A stretch of 10,750 bases of DNA, from positions 1 through 10,750 of the forward strand of contig JABXGS010000002.1 of NCBI GenBank assembly GCA_016550425.1, read 5' to 3'. This document shows, one piece after another, positions 1 through 7,451 of the stretch; position 1 is the stretch's first letter, and every line of letters begins with the position of its first letter. The translations under genes were made by a program, and so were the position numbers. The notes beneath the pieces are model-generated. The model was not told the DNA's origin. It worked only from the letters and a program-made list of their open reading frames with translations, and did not search any database. Source of the stretch: an archaeon (GTDB lineage: Archaea; Asgardarchaeota; Hermodarchaeia; Hermodarchaeales; Hermodarchaeaceae).

Positions 1-993
1 AATGAAGCCCGCGTGACCGGGCTCATGCACCCCTCCTTTGGAGGATACCTACCTCGAGATATCAAGTTCGTTGCGGCATTCGAAGTAAATGCAGGAAAAA
101 TTGGAAAAGATATCAGTGAAGCAATCTTTGTTCATCCAAATTGTGTTGCGAAATTTGCTGAAACACCAAGACTGGGTGTTGAGGTTCTTCCCGCCCCGAT
201 TATGGATGGTGTTGCTGAACACATGTATGAAGCCTTCAACGTCTATGATTCGAAGGAAGCAAAGCCTGTAGATGTTGCCGAAGAGCTTCGTAATTCAAAA
301 GCCGAAATTTTAGTAAATTTTCTACCGGTGGGAAGTGCTAAAGCCTCTCGCTATTATGCCCAAGCGGCCCTAGATGCCGGATGTGGTTTTGTCAATTGTA
401 TTCCTGAATTCATCGTCTCTGATACCGGATGGCAAAATAAATACCGTAAAGCAGGGCTACCAATGGCCGGAGACGACATTAAAAGCCAAGTTGGTGCCAC
501 GATTCTTCACCGTGTAATTGCCCAATTGCTCTCTGATCGCGGAATAGAGATTGATGAAACCTACCAGTTGAACATTGGTGGTAATACAGATTTCGAAAAT
601 ATGTTAGCTGAGCATCGACTGAAGAGCAAACGCATTAGTAAGACGGAGGCTGTTACTAGCATCCTTGATTACCCAGTCCCCACTCGAATAGGACCCAGTG
701 ACTACGTCCCATTCCTCGACGATACGAAGGTCTGTTACATCCACGCCCAAGGAAAGAAATGGGGTGGAATGCCAATACACATTGCACTGAAACTATCCGT
801 AGAAGATTCCCCCAATAGCGCGGGTGTTGTTGCAGATGTTATTCGTGCCACAAAAATCGCACTGGATCGTGGAATCAGCGGCCCCTTGATGAGCATATCT
901 AGCTACTCATTTAAGCATCCCCCAGCCCAAATTGAAGATGCTATTGCTAAACAGCACGTTGAAGAATTTATTCAGGGAAAAAGAGAGCGTTAG
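1..993 (+). CDS. ino1: myo-inositol-1-phosphate synthase, 5'-truncated by window edge
   Basis: NAD-dependent isomerase converting glucose-6-phosphate to inositol-1(3)-phosphate. In archaea the product feeds inositol phospholipid headgroups and sometimes compatible solutes. The reading frame is open from base 1, and residues before the GTG at 13 (NEAR) continue the family sequence, so the true start and the N-terminal Rossmann glycines lie off the left edge. Family blocks visible: GLMHPSFGGY near the start, NCIPEFI, GDDIKSQ (469-489), NIGGNTDFENM (from 571), SKRISKT (625-648), and KLSVEDSPNSAGVV (from 790), covering the catalytic and tetramerisation regions. The stop is TAG at 991-993. Oddity: the last 25 codons plus stop (916-993) have a diverged second copy at 2691-2768, beyond an endonuclease gene. 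The 3' end used here therefore appears to be a replacement brought in with that gene. No residue expected from the family appears missing in the visible part. Confidence 0.93.
   Translation, partial: NEARVTGLMHPSFGGYLPRDIKFVAAFEVNAGKIGKDISEAIFVHPNCVAKFAETPRLGVEVLPAPIMDGVAEHMYEAFNVYDSKEAKPVDVAEELRNSKAEILVNFLPVGSAKASRYYAQAALDAGCGFVNCIPEFIVSDTGWQNKYRKAGLPMAGDDIKSQVGATILHRVIAQLLSDRGIEIDETYQLNIGGNTDFENMLAEHRLKSKRISKTEAVTSILDYPVPTRIGPSDYVPFLDDTKVCYIHAQGKKWGGMPIHIALKLSVEDSPNSAGVVADVIRATKIALDRGISGPLMSISSYSFKHPPAQIEDAIAKQHVEEFIQGKRER
916..993 (+). repeat. copy A of duplicated synthase 3' end (in use)
   Basis: This is the C-terminal coding end fused in frame to the synthase: HPPAQIEDAIAKQHVEEF followed by IQGKRER and TAG. 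Compared by hand with 2691-2768, 18 of 25 residues and about 53 of 78 bases match with no gaps. Many differences are at third codon positions (for example CAT/CAC, CCC/CCT, ATT/ATC, GTT/GTC), so the protein is conserved while the DNA is altered. Confidence 0.9.
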
Positions 994-1065
994 CGAGACT
1001 AGGTATAATCCACCTCTTTTGAACTACAACTACTTTCTCTTTCACTTTGACAGCGCACCCTCTCT

Positions 1066-1080
1066 CGTTATATTATAACG
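1066..1080 (+). promoter_or_regulatory. palindromic TATA-type promoter of endonuclease gene
   Basis: The 15 bases cgttatattataacg form a perfect palindrome with 7-base arms around a central T, and contain a TATA-like core. Its centre is about 24 bases upstream of the GTG at 1097, so transcription would begin at or next to the start codon and the message would be leaderless. This agrees with the lack of a Shine-Dalgarno sequence before 1097. The symmetry could also be an operator, for example for autoregulation by an HTH protein. Promoter role inferred from spacing and composition. Confidence 0.5.
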
Positions 1081-1096
1081 ACATCTAGCTAAGCAT

Positions 1097-2716
1097 GTGA
1101 ATTCTAGTAAGCTAATGAAAAGAACACTAAAGCAAATCAAAATTTGGTCTCCCATAATTAATAGGACACCAATTACTTCAAAACAGATACTTAATGAGAT
1201 TATAAATCGTGAATATGCTGGCATTAAAAGAATTAAACATTTTAACGAGTTTCTTCAGGATGCTGAATGTCATCTTTCACTTTTTCAGAGATATAGGAAT
1301 CAAAAACAACTTGGTTACGGTGAACTCCGCAAGCTTGTTCGAGAATTTAATATGGCGCCTCAGAAAATCCAAAGCTATTTGAAAGATGGACGTCGACCCC
1401 GTCTTTATTTTTTAATTGAGAAAGGATTTTCGAAAACTCAAGCCGCTAAACGCAAAAAAGCTATACTTGCGCCAATCAATAATCTTGAATCGCTTAAGGC
1501 AGTTCAATCAGTCCTTGAAACATACTATCCATTTGAAGAAATGCTCGCGGTATGGGGTAGGGTAAAGTACTCCTTTTTATTGAACCAAGTTCGTAAGTAT
1601 TTCCATATTCTTAGTCATCTAAATGAGGGAGGAAGTTATTCACAAATTGCTAGAGAAATGAAAATGCGTGAAAGTCAGGTCTGGAATTGGTTAAATAGCG
1701 ACATTAAACCGGATCTACTTAACCTTGCAAGTAAAATCCCTGATACCGAATTACATCCTGGTAAACTGTTACTTCCATTAGAAATGAGGAACGGGTATCC
1801 CTATTCTCCATTAAGGTTCATTCAAGTTACAGTTAAACCAACGACTTGGGATCACATCCTAACCGTTTTAGAATCTATTCAAAAGGTTGAAAGCCATTAC
1901 ACGGATAATCAAAGGGTTCTGTTTAACAAAATCGTGAAAAACGAAGCATTTGCCTATGTTTTGGGCTTATTAACTAGCGATGCAGCGAAGAATGGTAAGG
2001 GAACATCATTAAGATTTGATTTACGCCTCTCGAAATCCTACGGTTGGAGTAAAGATGTTGGTCAGTATGCCTGCTTTTGTTTAGGTCAAATAGGCATATC
2101 TGCATATGAGCTTCCATCAAATGCTAAGAAATCATACTTTCACTGGATATCAGAAAAGAGCCCCTTGATAACTTGGATGCTAAGAAGCTGTCTTGGAATT
2201 GCCAGGAAGGAAGTTACAACCTACAATAGAATTCATGTAGACTGGCTTTTCAAAGCGCCTTATAATATCCAATTGAAGTTCCTTCAGGGATTAAATGACG
2301 GAGATGGATGGGCAAGTGTTTGCAATCAAGCAATTGGCAATACCAGTGGCGTAAATAAGCCAATCATTCTGAAGCTACTTCAAAAATTTGAAATCAGGTC
2401 GTTTGAAGCAGGTCAGAATGTACAAATAACGAATTCAGAGAGTGTCAATAAAGCAGTTCAATTACCATTTTTTATGATGGCATCTGGTCGTCAAAAATCA
2501 GCAGAAAAGATTGCTGAAATGATAGAAGGAAGGTCCTCAGAAAGAACTGGAGAAATTCCCATCGAAATTTATTCAAGGATGTTAGAGCTACGCAAAAATG
2601 GTTATTCTCACGGTCGAATTGCTGAATCGATTTTTGACGAGACTGGTCATTCTTATCATCGTGATAAGATCCGTCGTATTTTGCTAAACTCACCCTCCAG
2701 AGCAAATCGAGGATAG
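1097..2716 (+). CDS. LAGLIDADG homing endonuclease with multiple HTH segments
   Basis: A 539-residue, free-standing endonuclease-like protein. Two LAGLIDADG-type motifs are visible: AYVLGLLTSDA (residues 286-296, acidic D295) and LQGLNDGDG (396-404, acidic D403). Their spacing of about 108 residues fits a single-chain, two-motif enzyme that makes a specific double-strand cut. Outside this core there are helix-turn-helix-like stretches at about 74-97 and 181-205, and a C-terminal one at about 493-528 (LRKNGYSHGRIAESIFD), which could read the DNA target. The start is GTG at 1097, supported by promoter spacing; an ATG at 1115 is the alternative. The last residues (SPSRANRG) and the TAG stop lie inside the displaced synthase tail, in another frame. 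Intein splicing blocks are absent. It probably cuts uninvaded synthase genes at the HPP region; that target is inferred from the insertion site. Confidence 0.85.
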   Translation: MNSSKLMKRTLKQIKIWSPIINRTPITSKQILNEIINREYAGIKRIKHFNEFLQDAECHLSLFQRYRNQKQLGYGELRKLVREFNMAPQKIQSYLKDGRRPRLYFLIEKGFSKTQAAKRKKAILAPINNLESLKAVQSVLETYYPFEEMLAVWGRVKYSFLLNQVRKYFHILSHLNEGGSYSQIAREMKMRESQVWNWLNSDIKPDLLNLASKIPDTELHPGKLLLPLEMRNGYPYSPLRFIQVTVKPTTWDHILTVLESIQKVESHYTDNQRVLFNKIVKNEAFAYVLGLLTSDAAKNGKGTSLRFDLRLSKSYGWSKDVGQYACFCLGQIGISAYELPSNAKKSYFHWISEKSPLITWMLRSCLGIARKEVTTYNRIHVDWLFKAPYNIQLKFLQGLNDGDGWASVCNQAIGNTSGVNKPIILKLLQKFEIRSFEAGQNVQITNSESVNKAVQLPFFMMASGRQKSAEKIAEMIEGRSSERTGEIPIEIYSRMLELRKNGYSHGRIAESIFDETGHSYHRDKIRRILLNSPSRANRG

Positions 2717-2768
2717 TGTGGCTAAACTACGAGTCGAAGAACACATACAGGGAACTCGTGAACGCTAG
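2691..2768 (+). pseudogene. displaced 3' end of synthase gene (copy B relic)
   Basis: Read in the frame ending with TAG at 2766-2768, this encodes HPPEQIEDSVAKLRVEEH followed by IQGTRER, clearly homologous to the C-terminus of the synthase at 916-993. It has no start of its own: the codon two before the HPP block is TAA (2685-2687), and no synthase sequence precedes it. The 25 codons and stop are undamaged. This suggests either recent displacement or constraint from the overlapping end of the endonuclease gene (2691-2716). It ends only 15 bases before the convergent regulator gene at 2784, consistent with it being the original gene end at this locus. A GTG at 2718 could in principle start a 16-residue peptide, but nothing supports translation. 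Confidence 0.85.
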
Positions 2769-2783
2769 TTGGGCAATTTCACC

Positions 2784-2981
2784 CTAATCGTCATCTGTTT
2801 GTGGCATTGTAAGAGGAGAACCAGAAATCCATAGCTCGCGTTTGAGAAGATCACGAATAGCCACACGAATCGCTTCACTTCTTGTTGGATAGGTTCCTCT
2901 GTCAACTAATGTGTCTAGCCCTCGTACGTAGGCTTTAGGGAGTTTAACCGAGACCAAATGCAAGCGTATTACCCGGGACAT
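2784..2981 (-). CDS. ribbon-helix-helix (CopG/Arc-type) DNA-binding regulator
   Basis: A 65-residue protein with the layout of a ribbon-helix-helix domain: a beta strand (LHLVSVKLPKAYVRGL, about 7-22), helix A (LDTLVDRGTYPTRS) and helix B (SEAIRVAIRDLLKREL, to about residue 50), then a short polar tail ending TDDD. Such proteins bind operators as dimers through the paired strands. The SVKLP strand and the YPTRSEAIRVAIRDLL run are typical of archaeal members. The start is ATG at 2979-2981, and a TATA-like box about 24 bases upstream suggests a leaderless transcript. It is divergent from the radical SAM gene at 3144, so it may regulate that gene or itself; this is inferred from position only. 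It lacks an adjacent toxin gene, so an antitoxin role is not supported. The target is unknown. Confidence 0.85.
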   Translation of the reverse strand: MSRVIRLHLVSVKLPKAYVRGLDTLVDRGTYPTRSEAIRVAIRDLLKRELWISGSPLTMPQTDDD

Positions 2982-3143: not shown

Positions 3144-4661
3144 ATGGAAAAAATGCCGCCTAAAGAGCTTCCCTACACGACCAAATCAGTATGCCCTGAA
3201 TGTCTCCGTGTTATCGAAGCCACCGTTTATGAAGAAGACGGAAAGGTCATGATTAAAAAAACGTGTGAGGACCACGGCGAATGGAAAGATACGTATTGGT
3301 CCAGCGCATCGGAGTTCAACCGGGCTTTTCAATATGCTTACAAAGGTATTGGTCTCGCTAACCCTCGAACCGAAACCGTCCATGGATGTCCAAATGATTG
3401 TGGGCTCTGCCCTAATCATAAGACCCACACCAATCTTGCCCTCATTGACCTAACTAATCGTTGCAATTTAGAGTGCCCGATTTGCTTTGCCCATGCAGGA
3501 AAAGCTGGGTACATTTATGAACCCACCCTAGAAGAAATCCGGGGAATGCTGGAAAATTTGCGGGCAAACAAACCTGTTCCTGCCCCTGCAGTCCAATTTG
3601 CCGGTGGTGAACCCACAATGCGGGCAGATCTACCAGAAATTATTCGAATGGCAAAAGAAATTGGTTTTCCCCACGTTGAAATTGCTACAAATGGCTTATT
3701 ACTTGCTCAGAAGGGATACCCCAAAAAACTAGTTGAAGCAGGGTTAAGCACAGTCTATATGCAATTTGATGGTGTCACAAAGGAACCATATATCGCTGCA
3801 CGCGGTGTAAACCTACTTCCCCAGAAACTAAAAGCCCTTGAAAGGTGCCGTGAAGAAGGCCTTCACAGCATCGTATTGGTACCCACACTCGTGCGGGGTG
3901 TGAACGACCACCAGATTGGGGATATCATTCGATTTGCTATTGAAAACCACGACATCGTTCGGTGCATTAACTTTCAACCTGTAGCAATAACAGGCCGAAT
4001 TGATACTGAAAAACGCAAAGAGATGCGAATCACCATTCCAGATTTGAACCGCCTTGCAGATGAGCAGACAGACGGACAGATAAAACCAAGCGACTGGTAC
4101 CCTGTCCCATTCGTAATGCCTGTCGCAAGAGCGCTAGGTGCCTTATCAGGAACTCCCAATGTGGAATTTTCAGAACACCCAGCTTGTGGAATGGCCACAT
4201 TTCTTGTTGTTGAAGATGATGGCAGTTGGGCACCAATCACAAAATACGTAGAAGTCGAAAAATTCCTCGGCACTCTTGAGAAAATGGCGAAAGACTTTGA
4301 AAAAGGAAAACAGTGGCGCGGAAAGATGCGTGGTGTCATGGGCGCAATGCGCTTCTTCAAGAAGAAAGGAATGTTGATGAATCTTGCCAACAATCTGCTC
4401 ATAAAGAAGGATTACGACGCTTTAGCCAAATTTATGAAACGCATCATTATGCTTGGTTCAATGCACTTCATGGACCCCTACAATTTCGATCTTGAACGTG
4501 TTGAACGGTGCGGAATTCATTACGCAATTCCAGACGGTCGAATTGTACCCTTCTGCGCAATGAACTCTTTTCATCGATCTAAAATAGAAAAGAAATTTGC
4601 GATGCCTGTTGAAGAATGGCAGAAAGCTCACCCGGGTAAGAAGATGAACGCTCCTGCATAA
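3144..4661 (+). CDS. tes: radical SAM enzyme of the tetraether lipid synthase (Tes/MJ0619) family
   Basis: A 505-residue radical SAM protein. The S-adenosylmethionine cluster motif is C107-x3-C111-x2-C114 in TNRCNLECPICFA, and GGEP (154-157) is the usual SAM-contacting motif. Extra cysteines mark further metal sites: an N-terminal C17-x2-C20 with C41, and C82-x3-C86-x2-C89 in GCPNDCGLCPNH just before the core. C-terminal cysteines occur in HPACGM, ERCGIHY and PFCAMN. This order matches the Tes family, which joins the biphytanyl chains of two diether lipids by C-C bond formation to make membrane-spanning tetraethers. Related paralogues of unknown or other lipid function share the same motifs, so the exact reaction is inferred. 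Start fixed by a strong ribosome binding site. The DUF99 gene follows after 62 bases on the same strand. No frameshift or missing cluster ligand seen. Confidence 0.8.
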   Translation: MEKMPPKELPYTTKSVCPECLRVIEATVYEEDGKVMIKKTCEDHGEWKDTYWSSASEFNRAFQYAYKGIGLANPRTETVHGCPNDCGLCPNHKTHTNLALIDLTNRCNLECPICFAHAGKAGYIYEPTLEEIRGMLENLRANKPVPAPAVQFAGGEPTMRADLPEIIRMAKEIGFPHVEIATNGLLLAQKGYPKKLVEAGLSTVYMQFDGVTKEPYIAARGVNLLPQKLKALERCREEGLHSIVLVPTLVRGVNDHQIGDIIRFAIENHDIVRCINFQPVAITGRIDTEKRKEMRITIPDLNRLADEQTDGQIKPSDWYPVPFVMPVARALGALSGTPNVEFSEHPACGMATFLVVEDDGSWAPITKYVEVEKFLGTLEKMAKDFEKGKQWRGKMRGVMGAMRFFKKKGMLMNLANNLLIKKDYDALAKFMKRIIMLGSMHFMDPYNFDLERVERCGIHYAIPDGRIVPFCAMNSFHRSKIEKKFAMPVEEWQKAHPGKKMNAPA

Positions 4662-4663
4662 TC

Positions 4664-4695
4664 GTTCTCTTCACCCCTCCCCTTTATTTTCTTGT
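4664..4695 (+). terminator. pyrimidine/T-rich stretch after the radical SAM gene
   Basis: A run rich in T and C (…cctttattttcttg…) follows the stop codon at 4659-4661, as in archaeal T-rich terminators. There is no stem-loop. It could equally carry a weak promoter for the DUF99 gene, so read-through into the next gene remains possible. Confidence 0.3.
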
Positions 4696-4712
4696 TCGTG
4701 TTTATTAGAAGC

Positions 4713-4716
4713 GGAG
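4713..4716 (+). promoter_or_regulatory. ribosome binding site deciding a TTG start
   Basis: GGAG lies seven bases before TTG at 4724 and supports this non-ATG start for the DUF99 gene. No ATG is available in frame before the conserved N-terminal block. Confidence 0.5.
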
Positions 4717-4723
4717 TTGAACG

Positions 4724-5314
4724 TTGACTTCTAATAAGAGATTACTAAAACCCGCGACACGTCTCTTAGGAATTGCAGAAAGTGGAGTTATGGGAGCGAG
4801 CCACACAATTCTTGGCGGCGTCGTGATGCGACGAGATCTAATAATTGATGGCATGATTTGGGATCGAGCAACCATCCGTTCAACAGATTCCACCGAAGCG
4901 ATTCTTCGAATGTATAAACACTTAGCCCGAAGCGACATCAATGGGTTAATGCTTCATGGCGCAATCATTGCTGGATTCAATATCATAGATTTAACCCACC
5001 TATCCGATGAGACAGCCCTTCCCATAATTAGTATCACCAAAGAGCCTCAAGAAGATTTGAAAGAACACCTAAAATCGACTTTTCCTTCAAAGTGGGTTAC
5101 CCGATGGAAACTCGTGCAACAGAATGGTCCAAGCAAACGAATAGCAACAGAACCCAACTCTATTGTATATGTCCAGTTCAAAGGATGCGACCTGGAAGTT
5201 GTGAAAGGAGTAATCAAACGATTTACTCGCTTTGGAGGAATCCCAGAACCAATTCGTGTTGCAAGGCTATTTGCTCGTGCCAAAATTGAGGCAGAGAATG
5301 TAGAAGTGAACTAA
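4724..5314 (+). CDS. DUF99 (UPF0215, COG1628) family protein, endonuclease V-like fold
   Basis: A 196-residue archaeal protein of a family with no settled function. Structure-based work places DUF99 near endonuclease V in the RNase H-like superfamily, so a nucleic-acid role is suspected. Family blocks in order: KPATRLLGIAES (residues 8-19), ILGGVVMRRDLIIDG (29-43), the TEAILRMYKHL region, INGLMLHGAIIAGFNIIDL (73-91), ALPIISITKEP, and the C-terminal GGIPEPIRVARLFARA (170-185). Length equals the usual full length. The start is TTG with a GGAG site. It lies 62 bases after the radical SAM gene, so an operon is possible, though no functional link is known. It converges on the Orc1/Cdc6-like gene, with a hairpin between them. 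Confidence 0.88.
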   Translation: MTSNKRLLKPATRLLGIAESGVMGASHTILGGVVMRRDLIIDGMIWDRATIRSTDSTEAILRMYKHLARSDINGLMLHGAIIAGFNIIDLTHLSDETALPIISITKEPQEDLKEHLKSTFPSKWVTRWKLVQQNGPSKRIATEPNSIVYVQFKGCDLEVVKGVIKRFTRFGGIPEPIRVARLFARAKIEAENVEVN

Positions 5315-5324
5315 TCTCCCCATT

Positions 5325-5345
5325 CTTAGAGCTCAAGGCTCTAAG
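5325..5345. terminator. hairpin between convergent genes
   Basis: CTTAGAGC (5325-5332), loop TCAAG, GCTCTAAG (5338-5345): a perfect 8-base stem. It lies after the DUF99 stop and overlaps the last codons of the minus-strand gene, whose TGA stop sits in the loop. Symmetry and position suggest a bidirectional 3'-end signal or RNA-stabilising hairpin. There is no flanking T-run, so a bacterial-style intrinsic terminator is not implied. Confidence 0.5.
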
Positions 5346-7381: not shown

Positions 7382-7451
7382 CTGAACTGATTTCCTATTG
7401 AACCAAACAGCCACAATTTTCTGAACCCTTTATGGGCAGTTGATGATGATT
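7382..7451. other. convergent 3' gap between Roadblock and JAMM genes
   Basis: 70 bases with no open frame of note, no clear hairpin and no strong T-run. Nothing beyond shared 3' ends can be supported. Confidence 0.5.

Follow-up and report, generated by a model that had tools for sequence, protein, structure and literature searches.

LAGLIDADG endonuclease genes in Asgard archaea that appear to carry replacement ends for the metabolic genes they invade

How can an endonuclease gene settle at the end of a conserved archaeal gene, leave that gene with a complete reading frame, and have a second copy of its end lying orphaned on the far side? The question is raised by a stretch of 10,750 nt (hereafter the window, meaning this stretch at its full length) from a Hermodarchaeia relative (Asgard archaea). 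Its first gene, on the plus strand, encodes an inositol-1-phosphate synthase (1..993, the 5′ end lying beyond the window; PF01658, E 8.5e-34), whose protein is 88-90% identical to those of five Hermodarchaeota loci (L001-L005). The gene closes with a stop codon at 991-993 and is followed on the same strand by a spacer (994..1096), a gene for a LAGLIDADG-fold endonuclease (1097..2716, starting at GTG 1097 or ATG 1115) and a second synthase end (copy B, 2691..2768), beyond which, on the minus strand, comes the ribbon-helix-helix (RHH) gene that is the synthase's native right neighbour (2784..2981; RHH_1, E 4.4e-9). Copy B shares 53 of 78 nt with the coding end and stop that the synthase uses now (copy A, 916..993), which confirms the original observation, made from these letters alone, of a synthase end duplicated across a LAGLIDADG gene. 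We interpret the arrangement, with a probability of roughly 0.88, as an intron-less and intein-less homing element made up of the endonuclease gene and a substitute end for the gene it targets. Sequence comparison shows that the native synthase end has been split off, with a diverged homologous end in its place and the endonuclease between the two.

Which of the two ends is the native one? Trees cannot tell with 25 codons, so this was judged by comparing identities in the body of the gene and in its tail. Against the closest known synthase protein (P0010, compared at the protein level only) the window shows 6 differences among 305 body residues, 6 among the 25 residues of copy A and 2 among the 25 of copy B, the rate in copy A departing from that in the body with a Fisher p of 7e-5; the nearest relative therefore has the end resembling copy B that had been expected of it. 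P0011 behaves likewise (21/305 in the body, 7/25 in copy A and 2/25 in copy B). At the DNA level the body is nearest, if narrowly, to L002 (78.2%, against 76.3-77.0% for L001 and L003-L005, and 68.5-77.0% for the others overall), whose tail is 81% identical to copy B and 64% to copy A. Because the residues of P0010 and P0011 and the DNA of L002 all favour copy B, we take it as the native end and copy A as foreign. Of the six body differences from P0010, two fall at residues 292 and 303, residues 267-291 being identical, and the replaced tract may thus extend upstream of the His-Pro-Pro triplet at which similarity between the copies had been said to begin, possibly over 799..915 (left edge approximate).

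What did the site look like before the insertion? In four relatives (L001, L002, L004 and L006) the RHH gene comes directly after the synthase end, with no endonuclease match between the two genes, as had been anticipated for element-free relatives; in L005 about 960 nt of other sequence separate them (4380-5340). This L005 insert is a reverse-strand gene, NUDIX-like by eye, and is maybe the scar of a lost element; the L005 synthase tail is 84% identical to that of L003, the bodies being 75.7% identical. The four empty sites contradict the idea of an endonuclease that is free-standing beside its host, with copy B as what is left of a second synthase paralogue. Some archaea do have a pair of synthase genes (L008 and L016 share a contig), but copy B begins exactly at the endonuclease junction, leads straight on to the RHH gene native to this place and is similar to the tail that the closest orthologue has, which leaves the paralogue hardly credible.

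The homing-element reading finds a parallel in L003 (Hermodarchaeum yapensis), where synthase, endonuclease relative, remnant of a second synthase end and RHH gene follow each other in the order of the window. The endonuclease relative there is frameshifted, its two pieces lying in two frames and being 58% and 49% identical to the window's protein. Over 512 codons the two genes differ at 168, 109 and 277 sites by codon position, a pattern showing that the endonuclease evolves as a protein. The last 14 residues of the remnant read KLRVEEFIQGTRER, and its last 48 nt are 75% identical to L001, L004 and copy B; with the synthase end that its own genome uses the figure is 62%. L003 is a second, independent case of the arrangement at the synthase site, with a broken endonuclease.

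The endonuclease itself proved on testing to have the LAGLIDADG fold and carries two LAGLIDADG motifs, both assigned by eye in an alignment of nine sequences: YVLGLLTSDAA at 1955..1987, with D289, and LQGLNDGDG at 2282..2308, with D395 and D397. These three residues are invariant among the nine, and we take them to be the catalytic acidic residues. The N-terminal half includes a helix-turn-helix segment (1604..1696; weak HTH_23/HTH_29 matches at E of about 8e-4, under the curated cut-off). Expression would presumably start from the spacer, which has a TATA-like stretch, TATATTATAA, at 1069-1078, to judge by its sequence a probable promoter; the L003 spacer has a similar CTCTC..CGTTATATT stretch in the matching position. 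A search of solved-structure sequences with the alignment returned one weak unrelated row only, and a scan of viral_contigs with it gave 67 pattern matches and no relatives.

LAGLIDADG enzymes are usually carried by introns or inteins, and a degenerate mobile intron or intein that lost its splicing, the host being rescued later by gene conversion, could be envisaged at this locus; intron-like elements with host-gene duplications are indeed described in parts of a report on Tremella mitochondria (PMC7315562). However, a scan of the window yields no Rfam match at or above the gathering score, Pfam and NCBIfam scans find no splicing domain in the endonuclease ORF (open reading frame), and the host ORF stops before the endonuclease, the end that flanks it being a duplicate. 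In addition, across loci the endonuclease lies in the same or in the opposite orientation relative to the host gene. The earlier statement that the insertion is neither intron nor intein therefore stands, and descent from either is extremely unlikely. A transposon fits no better: no transposase domain was found in the window ORF at E ≤ 1e-3, and none of the five inverted repeat pairs bounds 994-2690. ARAGORN detected no tRNA, as a possible target, in the 12 loci scanned.

Is the synthase an isolated victim? Searching 227 genomes of the phylum with the nine-relative alignment gave family matches at E ≤ 1e-3 in 39 of them, several of the matches being weak. We examined 56 loci, namely 54 that were fetched, mostly for stronger matches, plus the window and L003, and excluded many weaker fragments. 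In loci of G226, G224, G225, G213 and G211 several family members belong to very long ORFs, in which the N-terminal module recurs as two or three partial repeats. At each locus we looked for a copy of the neighbouring gene's end beyond the endonuclease, with mismatched loci as the null and with scores of at least 30 for tails (3′ ends) and at least 45 for heads (5′ ends) counted as strong. Out of 98 ends found, 88 were tested (45 tails and 43 heads) and 10 skipped, the other side being too short or the neighbour too far. Strong flanking duplications emerged at 9 of the 88 ends, in 9 of the 56 loci and 8 host genes. Host names other than the synthase come from our reading of the sequences, without family-library runs.

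Five of these duplications concern 3′ ends: the synthase (window and L003), an acyl-CoA dehydrogenase (L140), etfA (G003 C42) and a gene of 140 aa (G001 C12; seven residues only). The other four concern 5′ ends, in an oadA/pycB-like gene (L160), urocanase hutU (L166), argF (G001 C13) and fae-hps (L138). The replacement of 3′ ends that had been proposed is therefore seen, but it is limited neither to 3′ ends nor to a single orientation. Control tests on 175 genes from L001-L080 (227 tail and 123 head tests) yielded no tail of at least 30, as opposed to 5 of 45 at the elements. The nominal ranks of L003, L138 and G001 C12 are lowered because the high null scores come from loci with the same host gene. 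A score of 21 for L143, where the null reached 20, and one of 17 for L149, where it reached 16, were left uncounted; beside etfA in L143 we noticed, by eye, a non-coding direct repeat of about 38 nt. Endonuclease neighbours recur across genomes (etfA in four, hutU and the oadA-like gene in three each, fae-hps in two), the acyl-CoA dehydrogenase adjoins the endonuclease in four by coordinates (G194, G211, G186 and G209), and G004 and G006 contain the gene found beside G001 C12 as well, with a similar orphan tail by eye.

The argF locus of G001 shows how a 5′ end may be exchanged. An orphan start of 19 codons lies there on its own upstream region, followed by the endonuclease and by argF with a different start. 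The sister genome G004, whose argF body is 91.4% identical, has no element at argF; its argF start agrees with the G001 orphan in 55 of 57 nt and with the start now in use in G001 in 34 of 57, and the DNA ahead of it corresponds to that ahead of the orphan. In seven of seven other genomes of the class, too, the orphan is a better match than the current start. The argF cassette brought in an upstream region and a start, as a mirror image of the window, and argF in G004 is an exact empty site, which makes this the clearest case of the family. The cassette reading, in which a replacement end arrives with the endonuclease and the native end is pushed downstream, is supported by P0010, L003, the empty sites and argF.

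At hutU a series of alleles is available. The gene is empty in G222 and G221, whose 5′ ends share 92% and 91% identity (nt) with the orphan of G226 and 77-78% with its current end, and occupied by the element in G226 (L166). Along the G226 gene the match to G222 improves from about 76% to 91-97% identity at about L166:7400-7420, and at the same place that to G224 drops from 96-98% to 85-92%, so that G226 hutU is a mosaic with a sharp breakpoint. Since the current 5′ ends of G224 and G226 are 96.4% identical and their bodies 86.6%, a transfer of the end is indicated. G225 retains an orphan, now decayed, and a new start, and nothing recognisable as an endonuclease separates the two. In G224 (L332) no orphan was found upstream of hutU; a remnant of an ORF resembling a zinc-finger transposase, seen by eye, lies upstream of the replaced 5′ end.

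Both loci bear on the simplest competitor of the homing element, a local tandem duplication of the gene end between whose copies an endonuclease was inserted later, without any foreign end. Tandem duplication would likewise yield two copies flanking an ORF, and the oadA-like 5′ copies of L160 (G218 C82) suit it, being 91% identical (233/255) and the same over about 68 nt beside the junction, from where they diverge towards the gene start, a pattern that is perhaps the trace of crossover or conversion. What contradicts it is that at argF and hutU the sister genomes match only one of the copies, as in the argF orphan and current end (55/57 and 34/57) and in hutU ends that are closer between genomes than the bodies are. 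Moreover, the copies differ mainly at third codon positions, like alleles that each evolved as functional genes, and duplication does not explain why the pattern recurs in as many as 8 host genes next to members of a single endonuclease family. We consider it very unlikely, and on the grounds given for each, the tandem-duplication, paralogue, intron and intein readings were all rejected.

A number of observations nevertheless weigh against the homing element, in part or in strength. At the synthase, the tail is short (25 codons), P0012 is equidistant from both copies (27/305 in the body, 5/25 in copy A and 5/25 in copy B), and the more distant P0013-P0019 do not discriminate A from B. Of the 56 loci 47 have no recognisable duplication, some being truncated by contig ends or degenerate, so that end replacement is not established for each family member; the inspection of homologues that had been called for revealed duplicated gene ends at nine loci. 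Heads separate poorly from controls (4 of 43 against 3 of 123, two of the three control heads belonging to L019 and apparently being tandem paralogous domains), and consequently, whilst the tails stand out clearly by count, the 5′ cases depend on comparisons at single loci. The weakest of them, fae-hps in L138, scores 48 with a chance control at 47, its support being its position beside upstream DNA that resembles that of fae in G007. The acyl-CoA dehydrogenase copies of L140 match G196 at 50 and 52 of 63 nt, which makes the native copy indistinguishable. In G199 the body of the oadA-like gene is 92-93% identical (aa) to those of G196 and G209 and its N-terminus only 77-79%, and the orphan N-terminus, 95.4% identical to both, lies on another contig. 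Furthermore, G207 and G211 have bodies just as close (92-93% aa) and share the current N-terminus of G199 (90-91%); two types of end hence circulate in close relatives and the native status in G199 is less clear. In hutU, an insertion of 32 nt common to G226 and G224 at the breakpoint (L166, about 7395-7427) breaks the frame, and the host enzyme may accordingly not be spared there: either the gene is dead or the insertion is handled somehow. Finally, the named relatives are nearly all metagenome assemblies. The 32-nt insertion, which stands between the imported 5′ end and the native body, bears a hairpin-like repeat by eye.

One more locus deserves mention. The ORF beside the duplicated etfA end in G003 C42 (L111, 3567-4844) matches the family in its N-terminal part only, and Pfam finds in it no LAGLIDADG or other nuclease domain; it could possibly be a second type of nuclease with the same kind of gene-end replacement.

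How might such elements spread? The endonuclease would presumably cleave the uninvaded allele site-specifically, at the junction, which lies in conserved codons (His-Pro-Pro for the synthase), and the break would be repaired from an element-bearing allele, homology being provided on one side by the gene body and on the other by the orphaned end. At 3′ targets the element supplies a coding end and stop, at 5′ targets an upstream region, a start codon and the first codons. Re-cutting could be prevented by the recoded replacement end and, at the other border, by the half-site left there. The endonuclease may later decay (L003) or be deleted (hutU in G225), the host retaining the foreign end. The sequences compared here show native and foreign ends in the window, argF and hutU, and empty sites and decay as well; cleavage, mobility and what had been called self-sufficient homing are inferred.

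It seems likely that Asgard archaea carry widespread homing elements of this kind, free of introns and inteins and targeting conserved codons of core metabolic genes, whose severed 5′ or 3′ ends (5′ promoter included) are replaced by imported orthologous ends, and that these continually drive horizontal transfer within genes and the formation of mosaic enzymes in cellular genomes. A selfish nuclease gene could in this way occupy conserved cellular genes without splicing, paying with a spare part. Some conserved Asgard enzymes would then be predicted to have foreign ends, able to mislead gene trees and promoter mapping, and the hutU and argF alleles offer a ready system for testing homing in the archaea closest to eukaryotes. 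In the window, a gene for the tetraether lipid synthase Tes (NF045702) lies at 3144-4661, near the synthase and the RHH gene, which places the element within a lipid-biosynthesis neighbourhood.

How do these elements compare with known systems? Free-standing homing endonucleases, which sit between genes, resemble them in that the gene moves alone in intronless homing, with neither intron nor intein; the portions of the literature consulted on them make no mention of a carried replacement for the end of a host gene. The Asgard mobile element HeimM2 includes a homing-endonuclease homologue, but is, in the available part of its description, an 8-kb element between a 16S rRNA gene and a tRNA gene, with no gene-end replacement described there (PMC8813620). 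The mitochondrial introns of Tremella fuciformis are nearer, in that a mobile element brings partial replacement of a gene by foreign sequence and alleles with and without the element occur in one species; in the sections seen they are presented as predicted introns, some no longer spliced (PMC7315562), in contrast to the window, where no intron was found. Among the matches listed by our full-text searches, whose coverage leaves out most subscription papers, there was no prokaryotic element that replaces gene ends.

The closest likeness is to the mobile ORF (mORF) elements of fungal mitochondria, known from atp6 of Allomyces macrogynus and from atp6, atp9, cox2 and nad3 of Glomus sp. (excerpts of PMC3630166), which bears out the resemblance to fungal atp6 noted at the outset. 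According to the same excerpts, an mORF pairs an endonuclease ORF with a C-terminal coding end of foreign origin, to which the host gene is joined; the native end has been moved downstream and is closest to that of a sister species, and the Glomus endonuclease is of the LAGLIDADG type in three of four genes (PMC3630166). Of these features, an endonuclease between host gene and displaced end is found at nine of the 56 loci, the window and L003 included, and a displaced end that is native beside a current one that is foreign is indicated by P0010, argF and hutU and less clearly by G199, the near-equal counts of L140 pointing neither way. The mORFs are mitochondrial and, as far as the excerpts describe them, affect C-terminal ends only (PMC3630166), whereas the elements in the Hermodarchaeota relatives and other Asgard genomes lie in archaeal genomes, affect 5′ as well as 3′ ends in either orientation, encode a different, multi-domain endonuclease family with helix-turn-helix segments, and target several metabolic genes, some of them in more than one genome. 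Because fungal mORFs were already known to replace C-terminal ends, what is new here is confined to the archaeal genomes, the other endonuclease family, the 5′ in addition to the 3′ ends, and the several metabolic targets. That fungal mitochondria offer a parallel suggests that replacing what the endonuclease severs is a strategy with more than one origin.

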